DNA from: a virus
DNA: 21,573 nt
Strand: one strand, 5' to 3'
IMG/VR virus record: IMGVR_UViG_3300007960_000241
Coordinates: 1 to 21,573 of that record
Both the position numbers and the translations under genes were made by a program. Shown in pieces: positions 5,385-21,547 of the stretch (the stretch's first letter is position 1; every line of letters begins with the position of its first letter). The notes below the pieces were generated by a model. It saw only the letters and a list, made by a program, of their open reading frames with translations. It was not told where the DNA came from and ran no database searches.

Positions 5385-8300
5385 CTATTTTTTATCCCAG
5401 TATATACCTTCGTTTTTAACGTTGTGGTGTAAGATAAACGCTTCGTTTGTTTCACCTGCCCAGAACGCTGTGTCTCCAGCATTGATTACTGCAACAAACT
5501 TGTACCCCATGTCTTCAATAGAAACAACTTCGTCCCAGAAAGTTTCGTCATTCCTCATACATGCTACTTCTTTATTCATAAGATCAGGAGCACTAACGAA
5601 CGTTAAATCTTTAGTAAAGATGGGCGCAGTTGTAGAACACACTAATGATACACCTGTTTTAGTCACTAATCTTACGCAAGGTTGATGATCTACGTGATTG
5701 AATACTACGGTTCCTAGATAAACTTCTAAATCTTTGCTGTCTTTACCTAGAGAAATATCATGACCTTCTCGTAGTTGCCACGCTTGTTCAATAGCTCTAC
5801 CATTCCAAATAGTAGTTTCTACCGCAGGTATATAGCTGTCTAAGACTACGCACCCGCCGCCACCAGGTGGTGGAGTCGTTGGTGGGGGTGGAGGAGGTGG
5901 TGGTGGAGGAGGTGGAGGATTTGGTGGCGGTATCGGACCGACAACTGCTCCTATTGTGTTCTCCTCGACTGGTTCATCATCTTCATCTACTAAGTCCGGT
6001 GGAGGCGGAGGTGGGGGCGGAGCAACATATTGTTGATGGCTCTCGAATCCCGTAGTAGAAGTCAATGCATTAGAGAATCTAGTAAATGTAAACGATTCTC
6101 CGGTTAGAGGATTTAGATAATATTCTTCTCCGGCTGAAGCTGGTGCGAACACACCTGAATTACTATCAAAACTAAACTGTCCAAGACTTGATCCAGGTGT
6201 TTGGGTAGTTGCTAGTAATGCAAGAGTAGTGTCTGCTTTTGCCGCATCTTGAATCGCAGTTTCTAAGTCTTGGAATGCTTCTTTAGTCTCACTTAGTAAG
6301 GTTGCGCCGGCTGGTACTTTTTCTGTAACTGCATTAGGTGCAGTCGATAGTATTGATTGTACTATATTTCTTGCGATATCTAATTCTGCAACCGATGTCT
6401 GATATGCGGCTAATGCAGTTGCTATTTCAGGTGATCCTGCAGGTAAATTAGCTAACGCTTCTGCATATGCAGATTGAGCTTTAGTAGCTTTCTTGCTGGC
6501 TGCTGTAAGTTTTCTAGCGGCTGTTGATAATTCTTTACGTTGTTTTATCAGCGATTCGGCCGCGCCTATTGCAGAAGGTGCAATCTCCCCTAATAGATTA
6601 GGTCTTGGGATAATGCTGGGACCTAAAACATTGTTAATCATGGCTGTTAGCGGAGCCCTATTAAATGTGTTGACACCGATGCTAGGTAATTTGACTGTAG
6701 AGCCACCACCTGAAGTTAATGATGCGAGTGCTGATTCTACTATAGCTTGTACGCCTGGAGGCAAATTGCTAGTTAATTTATTAGTCACACCACCTAATAA
6801 AGTTGAACCTGAAATGTTAGTAGGTAATGCAGGTAATCCAGAGAATGCTTTGGTAGCTAAGTTTTCTATCTGCCCGGTCAGACCTGTAAGGTTAGTTGAT
6901 ACAGGATTTATTGCTCCTTTAGCACTGTCAACAATCGCACCTGCAATCGCAGTTCCACCGGGTAAATCTTTCAAGCCGGTCGCGGCTGCGGCTGCGGCTC
7001 CAGCAGATAGACCTTGCTGAACTTGCTGAGCCGCATTTGCCAATTGATTTTGTTGTGTAAGAGCAGTGGCACTCTTACTTAAGGCATCCGTTGCGTTTCC
7101 TGCTATGTTAACAGCATCAGAAATAATGTCATTGGTGATTCCACCGACTGCATCTTTAACTGCTCCTGTGACTGCTGATGTTGCGCTGTCTAAAGCACCT
7201 TCGATTGCACCGGCACCAACTCTGGCTGCTCCGCTACTACCGATCTCGTCTATGATACTAGAAGCACCTTTACCAATAACATCTGAGATGATTCCCGAAG
7301 ATACTCCTTTTGCTATATCAGTAAGATCGATAGGTTGGCCAGCCGGGAAAGGCTTAAACGTTTTAGTAATTGTCTTAAACGCTGATGCTACAGGACCAAT
7401 ATTACTATCTAAAGAATTACCAAAATCAGGTACTTTACCGATAGCATTGAGAGATTTAGTGATACCTCCTAATCCTCCAGTCAACGTAGAAGCGATTGCC
7501 GCTGATGTACCTTGTTTGATAGAATCTAGTGCGGCTGATTTTACTGCCCCGGATACACTTGATGTGCTTAAACCATTCTTGACTAGATTTACTGTACTAG
7601 AAATTTGATCTCCCACACTTCTTGCTGAAGCAGTACCGCCGGCGGCTGCCGCTACAATACCACCAATAGCGCCGGGCGCTTCTTTACCTGTGATGGCTCC
7701 TGCTAATGCTAATCCAGTCTGTGCTTTTTGCATGTTAGTCACAACTGATTTTGCTTGAGCGTTTACACTTCCAGTCAGGCTATTTAAATTATTAACACCC
7801 TCTTTACCACTAAAGATAGATTGAGGCATTGCTTGTTGTACTGTTGCTTTGCCGGCCGCTACAAGAGTGTTTACCATGTTGTCAGAACCAGGTTTCAAGA
7901 TACCACCTGATGCTAATTGTGATGGTGTCTGAGCAAAAGCGCCAACTGCCGCGGCTATTTTACCTGTAGTGTTATCTACGAAAGTAGTAACACCTTTAGT
8001 GATTGCGGCTGCACCCGCAGATGCGGCTGCTTGTGTTGCTACTCCTCCTAACATTGAAGTAGTTGCATTCTTATCAAATGATTTTGATATCGCAGATACT
8101 TCAGGAACACTAGCAACTGTTGCGTCTGATACTGTATTTGGTTGTCCTTGACCTACTGCTGATGTGTTAAGGTCAGCAACATTTTCGGCTGGTGAAGGTG
8201 GAAGGGCGCCATCTGCACTGCTGTCAACAGTAACATCTACACCCTGACCGGCTCCTAACCAAGGACAGTGTGCAGGCGCACGTGAAGTGATACTGTCTAA

Positions 8301-9644
8301 TTTACCGGGGGCCGCTGACCATCCTGTTGCTTCGTCAAATAAAGTATCAGTGTGCTTGACAATAGGAATAGGTTCGATCTTTACTGGAGTGATTCCAGCA
8401 CTGCCGTCGTTCAAATGAATCTTACTACCTTCATAATAAGATTCACCGCCTGATTTTACTGATGATTTGCTTGCGGCATCCAATGCAATATTAGTATCGC
8501 TTTTGAATAATAAATCTTTTAGTGAATATAATTCATAGTTTTCACCTACACGTTGCATAAACTTCTTGTCAGAGTTTACATTAATATTTTCAGTAGCATT
8601 GATATTAATGTCTTTACCGGCATGGATATTAACCATGTTATCTGCGTGTAAGTTTAAATCTCCTTGTGTTCTAAGGTTGATTGAGTTGGTAGCAAATACG
8701 TCTACAGTACCCTCTTTACCTAATTCGATATAAGACTGACCATTAGAGTGTAACAGCATTAAAGTTTGCCCGTCATCACTCATTAATATCTGATGACCCA
8801 ATGCTGTTCTAATTCTGATAAGCTGGTCTCTGCCGATAATATCACCGTCATCCATCACGATGCTGTGACCGCCTCTACGAGCAACAACTTTTAGATTAGT
8901 AGGTTCTGCTGATAGATTAGACGGCAGTGTCTCGTCAGTATATCCACCTTGATAGATAGGTCTACCCGGAGTGCTTACGCCCCAACCTACCCTACTTGAT
9001 GCTTCACGTGATGCACTAGAACTGATAGGTCCTCTGATTCTGTCACGCAAGATACCTTGCTGTTGCATGATCGTAGCTGTATAGCTGTGTACAGGTTTAG
9101 CGGCTTGTAGATAGTCTGGGTTATCTGATACGTCAGGGTTATTAGTATTGATGTTTGTAACAGGAAGTGTAGTGGCGCCGCCATAGCTTTGTGCTTCACC
9201 CTCGTTTGCGATAACTCTGTCAGAGCTACCGATAGCAGGAACCATTTGCAGTTCCGAACCATCAGCGACAGCACCAATATAAAAACCATAGTTCATATCA
9301 CCGTTGACGAATATACACAATACTTTTGTACCGATGTCAGGTGGTGCGTTCCATTGACCATAAGAGCTAGGGTTAGATACATAATCACCTAGCTCATCAT
9401 CACCTGCTTGCGGTTTTACTACACCAAAGAAAGTGCTTAGTCTTCTTACAGGAATCCAGGTTGATTTATCATAACCTGCTTTGTCTAGTGATTCAGAGGG
9501 GTACACTTCGATTCTACCTGAGTTGGTAGGGTCGATGTTGTTCATAACTGTTGCGATAATAGGTACTTCAGCCGCTTGACCTTTACCGGCGCCTGGCTCG
9601 TATTTTTTTAATTTACCTGTCGGTTTGAATACGTCTTGACTCAT
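5385..9644 (-). CDS. 5: gp5-like central spike fused to a C-terminal Hint domain
   Basis: 1419 residues. The order is: an OB-fold region typical of gp5/VgrG (about 25-130, with IIATVMNNIDPTNSGRIEVY and GTKVLCIFVNGDMNYGFYIGAV); a linker; a spike-like repeat region (about 255-415) with the alternating polar/hydrophobic pattern of gp5/VgrG triple beta-helices (INLRTQGDLNLHADNMVNIH, ININATENINVNS); a very Ala/Gly/Ser-rich region (about 480-1120); two polyproline runs around an acidic linker (about 1205-1260); GGGG; and a 155-residue Hint-type domain from Cys1265 (CVVLDSYIPA) to HHN at 1406-1408, with 11 residues after it. T4 gp5 carries a lysozyme domain between the OB fold and the beta-helix; none is visible here. 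In T4 this trimer is the puncturing tip beneath the hub. It starts 3 nt after the preceding gene, with a GGAGG site. The spike assignment is firm, the Hint assignment good, and processing activity uncertain. Confidence 0.85.
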   Translation of the reverse strand: MSQDVFKPTGKLKKYEPGAGKGQAAEVPIIATVMNNIDPTNSGRIEVYPSESLDKAGYDKSTWIPVRRLSTFFGVVKPQAGDDELGDYVSNPSSYGQWNAPPDIGTKVLCIFVNGDMNYGFYIGAVADGSELQMVPAIGSSDRVIANEGEAQSYGGATTLPVTNINTNNPDVSDNPDYLQAAKPVHSYTATIMQQQGILRDRIRGPISSSASREASSRVGWGVSTPGRPIYQGGYTDETLPSNLSAEPTNLKVVARRGGHSIVMDDGDIIGRDQLIRIRTALGHQILMSDDGQTLMLLHSNGQSYIELGKEGTVDVFATNSINLRTQGDLNLHADNMVNIHAGKDININATENINVNSDKKFMQRVGENYELYSLKDLLFKSDTNIALDAASKSSVKSGGESYYEGSKIHLNDGSAGITPVKIEPIPIVKHTDTLFDEATGWSAAPGKLDSITSRAPAHCPWLGAGQGVDVTVDSSADGALPPSPAENVADLNTSAVGQGQPNTVSDATVASVPEVSAISKSFDKNATTSMLGGVATQAAASAGAAAITKGVTTFVDNTTGKIAAAVGAFAQTPSQLASGGILKPGSDNMVNTLVAAGKATVQQAMPQSIFSGKEGVNNLNSLTGSVNAQAKSVVTNMQKAQTGLALAGAITGKEAPGAIGGIVAAAAGGTASARSVGDQISSTVNLVKNGLSTSSVSGAVKSAALDSIKQGTSAAIASTLTGGLGGITKSLNAIGKVPDFGNSLDSNIGPVASAFKTITKTFKPFPAGQPIDLTDIAKGVSSGIISDVIGKGASSIIDEIGSSGAARVGAGAIEGALDSATSAVTGAVKDAVGGITNDIISDAVNIAGNATDALSKSATALTQQNQLANAAQQVQQGLSAGAAAAAATGLKDLPGGTAIAGAIVDSAKGAINPVSTNLTGLTGQIENLATKAFSGLPALPTNISGSTLLGGVTNKLTSNLPPGVQAIVESALASLTSGGGSTVKLPSIGVNTFNRAPLTAMINNVLGPSIIPRPNLLGEIAPSAIGAAESLIKQRKELSTAARKLTAASKKATKAQSAYAEALANLPAGSPEIATALAAYQTSVAELDIARNIVQSILSTAPNAVTEKVPAGATLLSETKEAFQDLETAIQDAAKADTTLALLATTQTPGSSLGQFSFDSNSGVFAPASAGEEYYLNPLTGESFTFTRFSNALTSTTGFESHQQYVAPPPPPPPPDLVDEDDEPVEENTIGAVVGPIPPPNPPPPPPPPPPPPPTTPPPGGGGCVVLDSYIPAVETTIWNGRAIEQAWQLREGHDISLGKDSKDLEVYLGTVVFNHVDHQPCVRLVTKTGVSLVCSTTAPIFTKDLTFVSAPDLMNKEVACMRNDETFWDEVVSIEDMGYKFVAVINAGDTAFWAGETNEAFILHHNVKNEGIYWDKK
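5850..6040 (-). repeat. Polyproline/glycine low-complexity tract in gp5
   Basis: This coding tract for two proline runs and GGGG is strongly purine/pyrimidine-biased. The plus strand is a chain of GGTGG, GGAGG and GGGGG units (about 5866-5927 and 5998-6020). At protein level it is an extended, flexible linker that sets the Hint domain apart from the Ala-rich part of the spike. Such tracts often change length by slippage. Confidence 0.8.
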
Positions 9645-14893: not shown

Positions 14894-15910
14894 ATGACAA
14901 ATCTATTTAAGAAAGCGGCAGTTTTTACAGATATACATTTTGGACTAAAAAGTAATAGTATTCAACACAATCAAGATTGCTCTAATTTTGTTGACTGGTT
15001 CATTACCAAAGCCAAAGAAGAAAATTGTGATGTGTGTTTATTTTTGGGCGACTGGAATCATCACAGGTCGAGCATTAATATGCACACGTTGCAGTTTGGA
15101 TTACGTGCTTTAGAAAAACTAAGCAAAGCATTTGATCATGTATATTTCATTCCAGGCAATCACGATCTCTATTATAGAGATAAGCGTGATATTCACTCTG
15201 TTGAGTGGGCTAACCATTTACCAAATGTAACTATTGTTAATGATTGGTTCGAAGAGGGCAATGTAGTCATTGCCCCGTGGCTAGTGGGTGATGATTATAA
15301 ACAGATTCGAACTAAGAAGGGCAAATATTTGTTTGCTCACTTAGAACTTCCATACTTCTATATGAATGCAATGGTTGAGATGCCTGATCATGGTGAGATC
15401 AACAGCGATTACGTATCTCAATTCGACTGGGTGTTCTCAGGTCATTTCCATAAACGTCAATCAAAGAAAAATATCTGGTACATCGGTAACGCATTCCCTC
15501 ATAACTATGCAGACGCAGGTGATGATGCTAGGGGAATGATGATCTTAGAATGGGACAACGAGCCAGAGTTTCACGCTTGGCCCAATCAGCCCAAATATAG
15601 AGTGTATAAACTGAACGAGATTTTAGAAAACCCAGAAGGATTGCTGTTACCAGATTCTCATGTTAGAGTACATTTAGACATCGATATTTCTTATGAAGAA
15701 GCAAACTTTATCAGAGAAACTTTGATACCGCAACATAATTTACGAGAAATGGCATTGATCCCAATGAAATTGAGCGAGCATGCCACTGATCTTGCTCCCG
15801 GTGAACTGTCGTTTGAATCAGTTGACCAAATTATTATTGATCAGATCAGTAATATAGAGAGCCAGTTTTATGATCAAAAACTATTATTGGATATATATCG
15901 GAGTATATGA
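14894..15910 (+). CDS. 47: Recombination nuclease subunit gp47-like (SbcD/Mre11 family)
   Basis: 338 residues, equal to the usual gp47 length (~339). All metallophosphoesterase motifs are visible: FTDIHFG (Asp13, His15), FLGDWNHHR (Asp53, His56), PGNHD (Asn89-His90-Asp91), HLE (His149) and SGHFHKRQ (His184, His186). With gp46 it forms the Mn-dependent exonuclease that resects DNA ends for recombination-dependent replication and takes part in host DNA breakdown. The ribosome site is poor (GGG in a hairpin loop), suggesting controlled translation. The stop codon overlaps the ATG of the next gene (ATGA at 15907-15910). Confidence 0.93.
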   Translation: MTNLFKKAAVFTDIHFGLKSNSIQHNQDCSNFVDWFITKAKEENCDVCLFLGDWNHHRSSINMHTLQFGLRALEKLSKAFDHVYFIPGNHDLYYRDKRDIHSVEWANHLPNVTIVNDWFEEGNVVIAPWLVGDDYKQIRTKKGKYLFAHLELPYFYMNAMVEMPDHGEINSDYVSQFDWVFSGHFHKRQSKKNIWYIGNAFPHNYADAGDDARGMMILEWDNEPEFHAWPNQPKYRVYKLNEILENPEGLLLPDSHVRVHLDIDISYEEANFIRETLIPQHNLREMALIPMKLSEHATDLAPGELSFESVDQIIIDQISNIESQFYDQKLLLDIYRSI

Positions 15911-16572
15911 AAAAGATACACTATAGAAACGTGGGTTTACCAAAAACAGGTACTACTTGGCTTTGGCATCAACTCATGCGTAATCGTAATATAGACGGAA
16001 ATTTAAACGATTATTTAAAAGAATTTAAAGTAAAAACCATAGATGATTACAAACGATTGTATGAAAAGTTTGATGTTTCTGTAAATTTTAACACTCAAGT
16101 TTTTTATATTTCAAGTAATGATTTTGAAAGACCCGATAGAATCCATGAATATACTACACATATAACACTTAGTATAAGGAATCCGTATGAAATATTAGAT
16201 TCTATGTTCAACATGAGGAAGAATCGAAAAATACTAAACTTAGATACCAAATCTGCATACACCGAAGTTACAAGCATCATAGTAGAAAGACATTCCAATT
16301 TTGAAAATATTTTTGATTATTGGAAGTCTTGTAAATTAGACATCAAGTATATGCTATATGATGATCTAGTAGCAGATCCTAAAAAATACACTTATGATGT
16401 ATGTGAATATATAGGGGTTACCCCTTCGTATACGGAATTAGGTAAAATTTTGGCAACGGTCAAAGAAGATCCCTTAATATTTGACAATCAAAAAACAATA
16501 GATTATATTAACAAAAACATATGTGTGATAGAAGATCGCTTGAATCGTGACTTATCACATTGGAAAAGATAA
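15907..16572 (+). CDS. Sulfotransferase-like protein between gp47 and gp46
   Basis: 221 residues. The N-terminus GLPKTGTTWLW (10-20) is the PAPS 5'-phosphosulfate loop (P-K-[TS]-G-T-T-[WT]-L). SIRNPYEILDSMF carries the 3'-phosphate-binding pair Arg91 and Ser99 at the canonical spacing of eight. A C-terminal segment YDDLVADPKKYTYDVCEYIG resembles the Glu/Asp-x-Leu-x-x-Asp-P helix common to this superfamily. It is therefore likely to move sulfate from PAPS to a sugar or other acceptor, which cannot be told from sequence. It overlaps gp47 by 4 nt and gp46 by 1 nt (TAATG). Four sampled lines (16021-16260) average about 27% G+C, against 40-45% in samples of gp47 and gp46, so it looks like a recent acquisition fitted exactly into the operon. 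T4 also has small extra genes between 47 and 46. Confidence 0.75.
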   Translation: MKKIHYRNVGLPKTGTTWLWHQLMRNRNIDGNLNDYLKEFKVKTIDDYKRLYEKFDVSVNFNTQVFYISSNDFERPDRIHEYTTHITLSIRNPYEILDSMFNMRKNRKILNLDTKSAYTEVTSIIVERHSNFENIFDYWKSCKLDIKYMLYDDLVADPKKYTYDVCEYIGVTPSYTELGKILATVKEDPLIFDNQKTIDYINKNICVIEDRLNRDLSHWKR

Positions 16573-18341
16573 TGATAGCATTAAAAAATATTACACTGCG
16601 AAATTTTTTAAGCGTTGGATCAGTTACCCAAGCAATTAACTTAGATAATCAAGAACTTACTCTGATCTTAGGGGAAAATCTTGATCTAGGTGGTGATGGT
16701 GCAAGAAACGGTACGGGTAAGACTACTCTTATCCAAGCTATTAGCTATGCCTTATACGGTGTTCCGCTAAACAACATCAAACAAAACAATCTAATCAATA
16801 GAACAAACGGTAAAAACATGATGGTTACGCTAGATTTCGTAGCCAATGATGTTGAATATAGAATTGAACGTGGTAGAAAACCCAACGTATTAAAGTTTTT
16901 TGTTAATGGACAAACTGATGACTCGGATAATGATGCTCAAGGTGAGAACAAAGAGACACAGGATGTAATAGAAAAAATTATTAACATGTCCCCTAACATG
17001 TTTAGGAACATTATTGCTCTCAACACATACAATCAACCCTTCTTGAGTATGACTCAAGGCCAGCAACGAGACTTGATCGAACAGTTGTTGGGTATTACCT
17101 TGTTGTCTGAAAAAGCTGAAAAGATCAAGGGTCTTATCAAATCAAACAAAGAAGAACTACAGCAAGAAGAATTTAAGATCAAGGCTGTCGAAGAAGCAAA
17201 CAAAAGAATCCATGACCAAATTGATTCTTTACAAAAACGCTCTAGGTTGTGGGAAGCCAAGACAAATGAAGACATTACCAAACTAAAAGAACAACTTGAA
17301 CAATTAAAAACTTTGGATATCGAAGCCGAATTGCTTGGCCATAAAGAACTTACTGCGTACAATCAACGCAAGAAAGATCATGCAGATATCGATAAAAGTT
17401 TGACCAGAGCGCAATCAGATTTAGAAAAAGAAAATAAGACATACGAAAAAATTAATAAGGATATCAATACATTACGCACTAACAAGTGTTATGCTTGTGG
17501 TCAAGATTTTCATGACCACAGTCACGCTAAAGTATTGGAAGATAAAGAAAAAACATTAGAAGAAACTAGTGATAAGTTAGTTGAGCTAGCCGAATTCATT
17601 GTAGAGCTAGAAAAAGCAAAACAACTGCTTGGTCCTATAGGTACACAACCTAAATTGTTTTATGATTCTGAGCAAGAAGCATTTGAACATAGGAACAAGT
17701 TAGACAATCTATTGCAACAGATCGACTCTAAAGAACGAGATATCAATCCTTATATCGATCAGATCAGTGATATGCAAACTCAGGCTTTACAAGAAATCAA
17801 TTTTGACAAGATCAACGAACTTACCAAGATCGGTGAGCATCAAAAGTTCTTGTTAGACTTGCTTACTAGCAAAGACTCGTTTGTTCGTAAAAAGATTATT
17901 GATCAGAACTTGTCCTATTTGAACGCTAGACTAACTCATTATCTTGACAAGATGGGTCTACCTCATCAAGTTGTGTTCCAAAATGATCTTACTGTAGAAA
18001 TTACAGAACTGGGTAGGGAACTAGACTTTGATAACTTAAGCAGAGGTGAACGTAACAGATTGATCTTGGGTCTATCGTTTGCGTTCAGAGACGTGTGGGA
18101 GAACTTGTATCACCCAATCAATACATTGTTTATCGATGAATTGATCGATTCGGGTCTCGACACTATCGGTGTAGAAAATGCTATGGCTATTCTAAAAGAT
18201 ATGTCACGTAGACGTAGTAAGTCTATCTGGTTAGTATCTCACAGGGAAGAATTAGCAGGACGTGTACCAAGCGTATTGCAAGTTATCAAAGAAAACGGAT
18301 TCACTACGTATAATACTTCTAGAGACATGGGGAACTTATGA
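16572..18341 (+). CDS. 46: Recombination nuclease ATPase subunit gp46-like (SbcC/Rad50 family)
   Basis: 589 residues from ATG 16572; T4 gp46 is 560. An in-frame TTG at 16560 would add four residues, but the ATG forms the TAATG overlap with the preceding stop and gives the standard start (MIALKNITLRNFLSVG). Visible parts are: Walker A GARNGTGKTT (43-52); a Q-loop near ALNTYNQPFLSMT; two coiled-coil arms (about 180-300 and 318-420); a zinc hook CYACGQ (Cys306, Cys309) between them; the ABC signature LSRGERNRL (489-497); Walker B TLFIDEL (518-524); and a switch histidine in LVSHREE. It is the ATPase that opens and drives gp47. The stop overlaps the next start (ATGA, 18338-18341). Confidence 0.93.
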   Translation: MIALKNITLRNFLSVGSVTQAINLDNQELTLILGENLDLGGDGARNGTGKTTLIQAISYALYGVPLNNIKQNNLINRTNGKNMMVTLDFVANDVEYRIERGRKPNVLKFFVNGQTDDSDNDAQGENKETQDVIEKIINMSPNMFRNIIALNTYNQPFLSMTQGQQRDLIEQLLGITLLSEKAEKIKGLIKSNKEELQQEEFKIKAVEEANKRIHDQIDSLQKRSRLWEAKTNEDITKLKEQLEQLKTLDIEAELLGHKELTAYNQRKKDHADIDKSLTRAQSDLEKENKTYEKINKDINTLRTNKCYACGQDFHDHSHAKVLEDKEKTLEETSDKLVELAEFIVELEKAKQLLGPIGTQPKLFYDSEQEAFEHRNKLDNLLQQIDSKERDINPYIDQISDMQTQALQEINFDKINELTKIGEHQKFLLDLLTSKDSFVRKKIIDQNLSYLNARLTHYLDKMGLPHQVVFQNDLTVEITELGRELDFDNLSRGERNRLILGLSFAFRDVWENLYHPINTLFIDELIDSGLDTIGVENAMAILKDMSRRRSKSIWLVSHREELAGRVPSVLQVIKENGFTTYNTSRDMGNL

Positions 18342-19351
18342 GTCTTGCCCTGTGGCATTGGCATATTGAGATCAGTAGCAAGTGTACATTAAAGTGTCCC
18401 AGATGCCCTCGGCAAGAAGTACCCGACACTTTAGTGAATACAGAGCTAGACCTAATGTTCTTTAAAAAGAACTTTACGCCGGATTTTATCACACAAAGTG
18501 TCGAAAAAGTTACCTTCTGCGGTGACGACGGTGATCCTATCTATGCACATGATTTTATTCCTGTAATCAGATACTTTAAAGAAATCAAACCTAGTATTGC
18601 GTTTGTAATCGTCACTAATGGTTCATATAAATCTATGGGCTGGTGGCAAGAACTTGCAGAATTATTAGACGAACACGATCAGATTCATTTCAGTATTGAT
18701 GGTTGGGACCAACCAAGCAACAATATCTATAGAATCAATTCTAACTGGTCTAGCATCATTACAGGTGCTACAGTAATGACTCAACAGTCTAAGTGTTACA
18801 CTGTATGGGACGTTATTGGATTTAAGTTTAACGAGCATAAGATTGAAGACATGAGAGCCTATGCTACAGAGTTAGGCTTTGATGCTTTTCAATTAACGAA
18901 AAGCACGAAGTTTGGTAAGATTTATAATCACTATGGTGAAGACGATGATTTACAACCAAGTGATGAACTGCTATCATCTAGTCACAGATTTGAACGTGAA
19001 GTGTTCAAGCTGTCAGATAGAAATGTAAAACAACCTTGGATGAAAACAAATCTAAAGTTGTATAAAGAAGCACCGATCATTGGTAACGAACGCCCTCTAT
19101 GTCATATAGGTAACAAGGGCAGTTATATCAATGCTAAGGGAGAGTTTTATCCTTGTTGCTGGGTAGCAACACGTTATGGTCACAATAGCAAATGGAACGA
19201 AATAGGTAAGAAATATAACTTACATAACGTCAATTTACCCGAAGTTGTCAAAGACGAGTTCTGGAATGCCGAGTTTATTCATGGCTCTTACGAGTGTCAG
19301 ACAAAATGTGCCCATCATAGGATAGATAAAAATTACGCCACTGAGTGGTAA
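18338..19351 (+). CDS. Radical SAM protein with SPASM/twitch-like C-terminus
   Basis: 337 residues. The iron-sulfur motif is CTLKCPRC (Cys16, Cys20, Cys23; C-x3-C-x2-C). Next come FCGDDGDPIY (60-69), standing in for the usual GGEP SAM-binding strand, and VIVTNGS (90-96) and HFSIDGW (117-123), typical barrel strands. The C-terminal half has five more cysteines (255, 273, 274, 320, 324; PLCHIG, YPCCW, YECQTKC), arranged like the auxiliary-cluster part of SPASM or twitch proteins, which often modify peptides. The substrate is unknown. It starts within the gp46 stop (ATGA), so it is translated with the recombination nuclease. Whether it modifies a phage or host protein, or nucleic acid, is open. 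Confidence 0.85.
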   Translation: MSLALWHWHIEISSKCTLKCPRCPRQEVPDTLVNTELDLMFFKKNFTPDFITQSVEKVTFCGDDGDPIYAHDFIPVIRYFKEIKPSIAFVIVTNGSYKSMGWWQELAELLDEHDQIHFSIDGWDQPSNNIYRINSNWSSIITGATVMTQQSKCYTVWDVIGFKFNEHKIEDMRAYATELGFDAFQLTKSTKFGKIYNHYGEDDDLQPSDELLSSSHRFEREVFKLSDRNVKQPWMKTNLKLYKEAPIIGNERPLCHIGNKGSYINAKGEFYPCCWVATRYGHNSKWNEIGKKYNLHNVNLPEVVKDEFWNAEFIHGSYECQTKCAHHRIDKNYATEW

Positions 19352-19980: not shown

Positions 19981-20306
19981 GGTCGTGATTTTTGCGCTCG
20001 ACCCTCCTTGAGGACCCCTATATGGGCGACGGATCTGGAGTAGTGTGTTACACACAATAAACCGAGAGGGCAATCGTTATGGTAGCGAACCCTCAATGAG
20101 TCTATATCTATTTTGTCTTGATGATATAGAACATGCGTTGCCGAGAGGTCACATTTATTAATGTGATTGGCTCAACTACAACCCAGTAAACTTTACAGGG
20201 CAACCGGTAGCGATTGATTCATAGTAACGTGATCAGTCGGGGATAGACAACATGGACGATGGGCGGTAATGCTCCTTTGTCTTGGTAGTGCTTGAGTAGC
20301 ACTACC
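19981..20306 (+). ncRNA. Candidate structured non-coding RNA
   Basis: About 326 nt without a credible reading frame, almost fully covered by stems: GGTCG/CGACC (19981-20003); GTGTG/CACAC (20043-20055); GAGGG/CCCTC enclosing CGTTA/TAGCG (20066-20094); TCTATATC/GATATAGA (20101-20130); GTTGCC/GGCAAC (20137-20204) closing a three-way junction with TCACATT/AATGTGA and GTAA/TTAC arms; CGATTGATT/GATCAGTCG (20211-20239); AGACAACAT/ATG..TTGTCT (20245-20282); GGTAGTGCT/AGCACTACC (20284-20306). Three G-U pairs, which would be A-C mismatches on the other strand, favour the plus strand. Short words recur (CCGAGAGG at 20062 and 20141; GGTAGCGA at 20081 and 20206). I find no tRNA, tmRNA, RNase P or group I intron signatures. 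It may be transcribed on from the nuclease gene. Confidence 0.6.
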
Positions 20307-20369
20307 ATGGCTTCAAAACGGTAATAATATTCCGAATAGAACAATTAAGAGATTTTAGATTATCCTAAT

Positions 20370-20492: not shown

Positions 20493-20723
20493 TTAAAAGA
20501 ATGGCATCTGTGTTTTCTTGGTAGTTTCTAAATGATCTTCCACTATCTTATTTATGGCTTCACGTTCTGATTCAGACATGTTGAGAACATCTTCATAGGT
20601 GACACCGCCACGCATATACCAGGACAGACTCAAAGCATTAGCTTTGACTGCCCTGACGTAATCATCATACGATTTGATTAACTTCCTTATCCCGTCAGGG
20701 TCGAGAGAAAGAAGCCTTAGCCG
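20493..20723 (-). CDS. -1 frame extension of the gp26-like gene
   Basis: Seventy-six codons plus stop in the -1 frame relative to the gp26-like gene, beginning at the slippery site. There is no ATG, GTG or TTG ahead of the coding-like part: the first TTG and ATG fall within ALSLSWYM. The product includes DPDGIRKLIKSYDDYVRAVK, then SLSWYMRGGVTYEDVLNMSE, REAINKIVEDHLETTKK and ends MPFF. The helical, charged composition and this pattern (SWYMRGG-x-T/S-Y-E, ...TKK...PFF) resemble a small conserved protein I recall from marine T4-like phages near gp26. Expression by frameshifting would give a 351-residue fusion. It may act as the tape-measure-binding part, as the T domain does in lambda GT; this is inference. 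Confidence 0.7.
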   Translation of the reverse strand, partial: RLRLLSLDPDGIRKLIKSYDDYVRAVKANALSLSWYMRGGVTYEDVLNMSESEREAINKIVEDHLETTKKTQMPFF

Positions 20724-20729
20724 AAAAAA
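20682..20729 (-). promoter_or_regulatory. Programmed -1 ribosomal frameshift signal
   Basis: In the gp26 frame the heptamer T TTT TTC (20729-20723) has the exact X XXY YYZ phase. After 8 nt, which hold the in-frame TAA stop, comes a stem CTTCTTT (20714-20708) paired with AAGGAAG (20688-20682), enclosing a small CCC-TGAC-GGG hairpin (20700-20691). Slippery site, spacer and stem-loop are in the arrangement known from phage tail-assembly and other -1 frameshift genes. Confidence 0.7.
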
Positions 20730-21547
20730 TCGCTAACGTTCAGTGAGAATGATTGCTTGTACTCATGTTGACATTCAACACATGCGATATCTAGAGGTTT
20801 AATAGTGCTTTCTGCTCTTAATGCACTATGATAATCTCTGATAGTTTCATATGTTTTTGTATCAGCATTAGTTAAAAAGTCTTCAACAAATTCTACTTCA
20901 GTTACTTTTGCATTTGGAGTTTCTATGTACTCGACTGCTTGAGCCAAGATTTTCATAGTAAGCAATGTGATATCTTTCAATGCTTCTTGACTTAATCTAT
21001 TTCTTTCATCCACGTCTTTAACATCAGCTAAGTTTCTGTATTTGGCTTGAATCTCAAATTGACCTAGACCAGCTTGATTCATTTCTTTATAATGTAATGG
21101 TTTAAACTTGATCTTTAATTCACCGTATTCTAAAATTTTATGATAGTCACCCGGTCTTAAAGAAGATAACAGAGTTTGCATGTTAATACCATAAGTACCT
21201 AATGCCTTACAACTTGGGCATTCTGACTCAACATCAAGTGATTCTTGTCCGCCTGCCGCCCGGATCGCAATTAAAATCGAATCTAAGTCATTGCTCAATA
21301 CTTTCCATGGGTCTTTGATATTCGGCACACAACTTTTGATGATCTGCACGATTGCGTCACCGTTAAACAATGCGTCAGGAGTTTTGGTGGTAATGTCATC
21401 GATAGCAGTCATGGGGTAGACTGGAAGTTCTCCATTCTCTGTTTTTTCGATAACGTCATCAGGATAGTTTTCAATACCTGATGGCAGAGTGATATAAACT
21501 CCTGGTCTTCTAAAGTACTGTCTTAACGGATTGTCAATTGCGGCCAT
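20717..21547 (-). CDS. 26: Baseplate hub/tail assembly protein gp26-like
   Basis: 276 residues (T4 gp26 about 208). The N-terminal pattern NPLRQYFRRPGVYITLPSG, then NGELPVYPMTAIDDITTKTP, DALFNGDAIVQIIKSCVPNI and DSILIAIRAA is that of the T4 gp26 baseplate family. Two CxxC pairs (CPSC at 110-113, CVEC at 256-259) could bind a zinc ion as a split ribbon. T4 gp26 is needed for hub assembly and is not a major part of the finished tail, which fits a chaperone. GAGGAAAC stands before the ATG at 21547. It is a separate leftward unit, convergent with the recombination operon. The gene ends in a frameshift signal, so about 275 residues are shared by the short form and a predicted 351-residue long form. 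Confidence 0.82.
   Translation of the reverse strand: MAAIDNPLRQYFRRPGVYITLPSGIENYPDDVIEKTENGELPVYPMTAIDDITTKTPDALFNGDAIVQIIKSCVPNIKDPWKVLSNDLDSILIAIRAAGGQESLDVESECPSCKALGTYGINMQTLLSSLRPGDYHKILEYGELKIKFKPLHYKEMNQAGLGQFEIQAKYRNLADVKDVDERNRLSQEALKDITLLTMKILAQAVEYIETPNAKVTEVEFVEDFLTNADTKTYETIRDYHSALRAESTIKPLDIACVECQHEYKQSFSLNVSDFFG

Follow-up and report, generated by a model that had tools for sequence, protein, structure and literature searches.

The question raised by this locus is whether a gp26-like gene, which ends on a slippery heptamer, gives a second and longer protein by programmed -1 frameshifting, and which task such a pair of proteins would have in a phage related to T4. Frameshifted chaperones of long-tailed phages have been known since lambda. 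The window, that is, the whole stretch of DNA analysed, contains the 21,573 nucleotides of the virus record IMGVR_UViG_3300007960_000241, and its features are collected in Table 1. The reading preferred here, with a probability of about 0.93, is that a jumbo phage related to T4 encodes here a frameshifted tail-assembly chaperone, of the same kind as lambda G/GT.

Table 1. Location of the gp26-like gene, its putative frameshift elements and other features of the window.
Feature	Position	Strand	Basis or remark
gp26-like gene, short form (putative TAC-N / G counterpart)	20717-21547	-	276 aa ORF
Slippery heptamer T TTT TTC	20723-20729 (read 20729-20723)	-	sequence; in phase with the gp26-like frame
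0-frame stop TAA	20717-20719	-	one sense codon past the heptamer
Predicted stimulatory hairpin, 9 bp outer and 5 bp inner stem	20680-20716	-	-14.1 kcal/mol; covariation
-1 frame extension (putative TAC-C / T counterpart, gp51 C-terminal domain)	20493-20729	-	translation; 78 codons from the heptamer plus stop
Stop of the -1 frame	20495-20493	-
Conserved intergenic stretch, putatively structured (+ strand)	about 19985-20330		nhmmer, 86 matches
Radical-SAM-like ORF	18338-19351	+	by eye (CTLKCPRCPR)
Sulfotransferase-like ORF	15907-16572	+	by eye
Baseplate protein	5385-9644	-	weak Phage_base_V match

The gp26-like gene and its -1 extension

The gp26-like protein belongs to the PF12322 / T4 gp26-gp51 family. 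It matches PF12322 (T4_baseplate) with an E-value of 2e-14 and 54.2 bits, against a cut-off of 24.5, over positions 35-218 of the 219 of the profile, and in PHROGs it matches phrog_150, 'baseplate hub' (7.6e-15). In BFVD its best match is 'Baseplate hub assembly protein, bacteriophage T4-like' (E 2.4e-23, TM 0.88). The 3' end of the gene reads GAT TTT TTC GGC TAA and contains, in phase, the T TTT TTC that the initial annotation had pointed out. The nearest upstream stop of the -1 frame lies only 13 nt ahead of the 0-frame stop and, because of the little room that it leaves, the slip must happen at the heptamer or right beside it. Read from the heptamer, the -1 frame shows a peptide of 78 aa (FFRLRLLSLDPDG...MPFF), and fusion at the heptamer gives a long form of 351 aa (275+76), so the 351 residues and the 76-codon extension proposed at first are both borne out. 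The extension alone shows nothing credible against Pfam, and its best match in PHROGs reaches only E 0.04; homologues of it are present in Atu_ph07 (1e-12) and Phosso (4e-10).

Conservation of the heptamer and selection on the -1 frame

The initial annotation had proposed marine T4-like phages for an alignment of homologues. However, the nearest named relatives of the gp26-like protein are jumbo phages, of the Atu_ph07, Phosso, PA5oct and RaK2 type, with 24-32% identity. Ten named jumbo phages (Atu_ph07, Phosso, PA5oct, XbC2, BF, PHA46, 121Q, RaK2, SCTP-2 and Vibrio 2.275) all carry an in-phase T TTT TTC at the matching point, followed by an open -1 extension which begins with FF(R/Q), mostly FFRxxLL. 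The same arrangement is found in 27/27 environmental contigs with a readable 3' end. Heptamer and phase are kept in 79/79 jumbo-type and 80/80 cyanophage-type contigs, and the position of the 0-frame stop is identical in 78 and 80 of them, respectively. Of the 79 jumbo-type contigs, 78 have an extension of exactly 76 codons, and in the remaining one the contig edge cuts it short. Heptamer and extension in the -1 frame are also present in Vibrio phage Bakedbeans and in three of the four cyanophages read individually (S-RIM8, S-CAM8 and DSL-LC02). The heptamer arrangement is kept by all close homologues whose 3' end can be read.

Among genes ending in xFF, their own codon use would produce T TTT TTC in about 12%; it was seen in 30/30 of the first set, a count drawn from sequences which share ancestry and are not independent draws, with a divergence down to 24% protein identity. 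The alignment of homologues that had been proposed as a check shows heptamer, phase and -1 frame conserved, and the silent sites of the heptamer are invariant in sequences that approach saturation at silent positions (mean pS 0.78). Differences in the extension at codon positions 1, 2 and 3 amount to 0.44, 0.28 and 0.63, and its pN of 0.37 is, on average, about half of pS; therefore, the -1 frame is under purifying selection at the protein level.

Predicted hairpin downstream of the heptamer

The heptamer has the X XXY YYZ form of a -1 frameshift site, and the 3' structure predicted behind it falls within the 5-9 nt of such sites. A hairpin had already been proposed eight nucleotides past the heptamer: a stem is predicted and shows covariation, but it begins 6 nt past the heptamer, and it is made of the outer and inner stems given in Table 1. 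In the window, the hairpin gives z=-1.7 against dinucleotide shuffles, which is unimpressive, and z=-2.9 against synonymous recodings. Over 63 aligned sites, the named stem shows 78.6% of its cells paired, versus at most 50.8% in controls slid by 1-3 columns, and its covariation score in the 63-sequence alignment, 0.248, was reached by 0/500 shuffles. Against synonymous recodings of the -1 peptide, the mean fold z at the site is -3.95 in jumbo-type (n=62) and -2.31 in cyanophage-type sequences (n=73); further along the extension it ranges from -0.16 to -0.66 (about -0.7) and from +0.08 to -0.73, respectively. RNAalifold predicts zero pairs in the 63-sequence alignment, although the named structure outscores its controls, and the case for the hairpin rests on the scores of this structure and on the comparison with synonymous recodings. 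The RaK2-type phages show no significant hairpin downstream of the heptamer, a point against the chaperone reading; the stimulator is a feature of lineages and is not universal. In the 45 nt before the heptamer, no Shine-Dalgarno-like stimulator is obvious by eye.

Relation to T4 genes 26 and 51

Unlike the window, T4 has two separate genes and no slippery site, and its gene 26 ends GAG TTC TTT GAG TTA CTA TAA. Both T4 proteins match PF12322 (8.8e-64 for gp26 and 3.9e-52 for gp51), and the end of the PHROG profile which is missing from T4 gp26 is covered by gp51. The hhalign comparison of the jumbo fusion profile with gp51 and the cyanophage fusions gives Prob 99.0 and E 3e-18 over columns 13-348, and spans the junction; the extension alone reaches only Prob 61 against the gp51 C-terminus, with a pairwise E of 8e-5. 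In cyanophages, the small ORF after gp26, a 'baseplate hub assembly catalyst' by annotation, has a match to phrog_634, which is also matched by the C-terminal part of gp51. Judged by these profiles, gp26 and gp51 are paralogues, and the short form corresponds to T4 gp26 and the long form to gp51 from end to end. Since the fusion spans gp51 and the cyanophage frame matches, one frameshifting gene would do the job of two T4 genes.

The unrooted tree of the shared domain groups T4-type gp26 and gp51 together (98/94), away from all the frameshifting groups. This topology fits a single duplication in the line of T4, with the two-gene layout as the derived state. The balance leans towards T TTT TTC frameshifting being ancestral in the chaperone gene of the T4 superfamily, genes 26 and 51 of T4 having arisen by one duplication in which each copy fixed one product. 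On this reading, which we hold with moderate confidence, jumbo phages, cyanophages and part of the Vibrio phages would still use frameshifting. The conservation of heptamer and phase, the purifying selection on the -1 frame, the covarying hairpin and the homology spanning gp51 support the programmed -1 frameshift put forward in the initial annotation, and the end-to-end homology of the fusion with gp51 speaks for its proposal that gp26 is the T4-group counterpart of G/GT.

A putative tail-assembly chaperone and its neighbour

A short and a long form with a common N-terminal domain can be predicted in about 190 homologues. Most ribosomes would end at the TAA and give the short chaperone of 276 aa, while a minority, stalled by the hairpin 6 nt downstream, would slip from T TTT TTC to TTT TTT and continue in the -1 frame. 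This slip would add a helical domain of 76 aa and give the long form of 351 aa. If the parallel with lambda G/GT holds, the tape-measure protein would be coated by many copies of the short form and a few of the long one, whose extra domain would recruit tail-tube subunits, and neither form would remain in the virion. The slip itself, the slip rate and the role as chaperone are what we infer from the locus.

In the closest relatives, the divergent neighbour gene encodes a protein of 1240-1280 aa in which TM-like stretches occur together with an embedded cell-wall hydrolase; this tape-measure-like neighbour is known from the contigs of the relatives, its locus falling past the end of the window. 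Tape-measure proteins often carry cell-wall hydrolase domains. In RaK2-type phages, PHROGs call the neighbour a 'virion structural protein'. Its divergent transcription, which differs from lambda, counts against the chaperone reading. The hydrolase domain varies among contigs: it is of the GH19 chitinase type in L013:109-3963 (-), an amidase_2 in L014:104-3934 (-) and an M15-type peptidase, below cut-off, in L018:168-3947 (-).

Folding covered the window and contig sequences only, and the AlphaFold model of the gp26-like protein of the window has a pLDDT of 86.9. The HK97 tail-assembly chaperone 2ob9 can be superposed on this model over 101/107 of its residues with a Z of 6.3. The alignment speaks for the chaperone reading and its Z, middling by the scale of the tool, against it; the fold alignment, which has no sequence match behind it, is suggestive only. 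No PDB chain shows a sequence match to the gp26-like protein, and Foldseek with the model against PDB gives nothing at E below 0.001.

Alternative explanations

The frameshift may be real and the protein a structural subunit of the baseplate hub instead of a chaperone, as the family name 'baseplate hub' and the genetic work that locates gp26 there would have it. However, the review which collects this work lists gp26 and gp51 as hub-assembly chaperones, with gp51 absent from the particle (PMC3004832), and the GenBank annotation of AM101 names gp26, gp51 and gp28 as tape-measure assembly chaperones. The two-form architecture and the tape-measure-like neighbour also argue against a hub subunit, which is unlikely.

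A very unlikely alternative is that ribosomes translate the extension by itself, as a small gene which has its own start or depends on reinitiation, and not as part of a fusion. The annotations of XbC2, BF, 121Q, Phosso and Vibrio 2.275 have a small ORF here which starts at the overlap or close to it. In the window, however, the -1 frame reaches its first ATG, GTG or TTG at codon 31 of its extension (TTG) and the next at codon 37 (ATG), yet the residues before codon 31 are conserved, and so the earlier statement that there is no standard start ahead of the conserved part is right. Seven phages, including that of the window, show none of these codons in the first 28 of the extension, where FFRxRLL is conserved, and PA5oct shows none in its whole extension, a pattern for which a separate gene cannot account. 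The invariance of the heptamer, silent sites included, would be unexplained by a separate gene, and T4 gp51 is colinear with the fusion. A separate gene is favoured by Cygsa01, a distant Pseudomonas phage which has lost the heptamer and ends AGC ATT TTC ACC TAA TG; its gp51-type ORF (L049:3260-3482) starts at the TAATG stop/start overlap. This suggests a switch from frameshifting to reinitiation in Cygsa01. The loss of the heptamer with both frames persisting had been named beforehand as evidence against a frameshift; it counts against the chaperone reading here, but it is seen only in this distant phage.

S-SCSM1 shows another exception (L045:3681-3880): the heptamer is there, and the gp51-type extension is in the +1/-2 frame. 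This is either a sequencing indel or error, or a real variant with a -2 shift, and it also stands against the chaperone reading.

The frame could also be changed by the RNA polymerase slipping on the run of six T, and not by the ribosome. Such a run is a possible site, although six T are short for it; the phase is fixed in every sequence, and polymerase slippage needs no hairpin, yet a covarying one sits at ribosomal spacing, so that this explanation is highly improbable. An assembly error or a decayed fusion gene, which has nothing more than the interrupted frame in its favour, is ruled out by the identical break at the identical place in about 190 sequences, ten named phage genomes among them.

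Other elements of the window

The intergenic stretch in Table 1 recurs in dozens of related contigs with a DNA identity of about 73-81%, and the adjoining proteins are mostly about 50% identical. Its + strand shows 65 consensus pairs, with 97% of the cells paired and compensatory changes in 37 of the pairs, and the - strand is weaker. It has no Rfam match, no tRNA and no match in named phages, and it resembles a structured non-coding RNA, so far undescribed, of this group of jumbo phages, which may be a more novel item than the frameshift. The baseplate protein contains a proline-rich linker near its end, and its C-terminal segment (CVVLDSYIP...HHNVKN) has, by eye, a Hint/intein-type look. The radical-SAM-like and sulfotransferase-like ORFs are located among T4-type recombination genes.

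Relation to known systems and significance

Lambda G/GT (Xu, Hendrix & Duda 2004) has the organisation predicted here, a short form and a -1 frameshifted long form, and adjoins the tape-measure gene, to which the tape-measure-like neighbour in the relatives may correspond. The present locus differs in its T TTT TTC and in that the tape-measure-like gene is divergent, and the likeness is one of architecture. The Vandenendeviridae/Andersonviridae locus described for Pseudomonas phage Adele (PMC12846349) is alike in that the -1 frame is open across the locus in every genome, in its T-rich slippery motif and in an extension mis-annotated as a hypothetical gene. It belongs to other phage families and has GTTTTT, versus TTTTTTC here.

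Frameshifting in several T4-like groups is reportedly described in the abstract of the study which identified their chaperone genes. The initial annotation knew of no standard annotation of this kind for T4-type phages, which is out of date: according to the abstract, T4-like chaperone genes were identified by Vladimirov, Gautam & Davidson (2022, Virology 566:9-15, doi 10.1016/j.virol.2021.11.003), a work cited in PMC12846349 for polyT slippery sequences in these genes. In 2016, a review of frameshifting in the chaperones of long-tailed phages still read 'except T4' (PMC5009743). The central idea of a frameshifted T4-like chaperone is already published; the literature search found no paper on chaperone frameshifting in jumbo phages, and the reach into these phages, the covarying hairpin and the evidence for the T4 two-gene layout as derived are new.

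The finding mends a systematic annotation error, in that the ORF after gp26, called 'hypothetical' in jumbo phages and 'baseplate hub assembly catalyst' in cyanophages, would be part of one frameshifted protein. It provides a large comparative set with a covarying stimulator, directly testable in cultured phages, and it supports the view that gp26/gp51 of T4 correspond to lambda G/GT.
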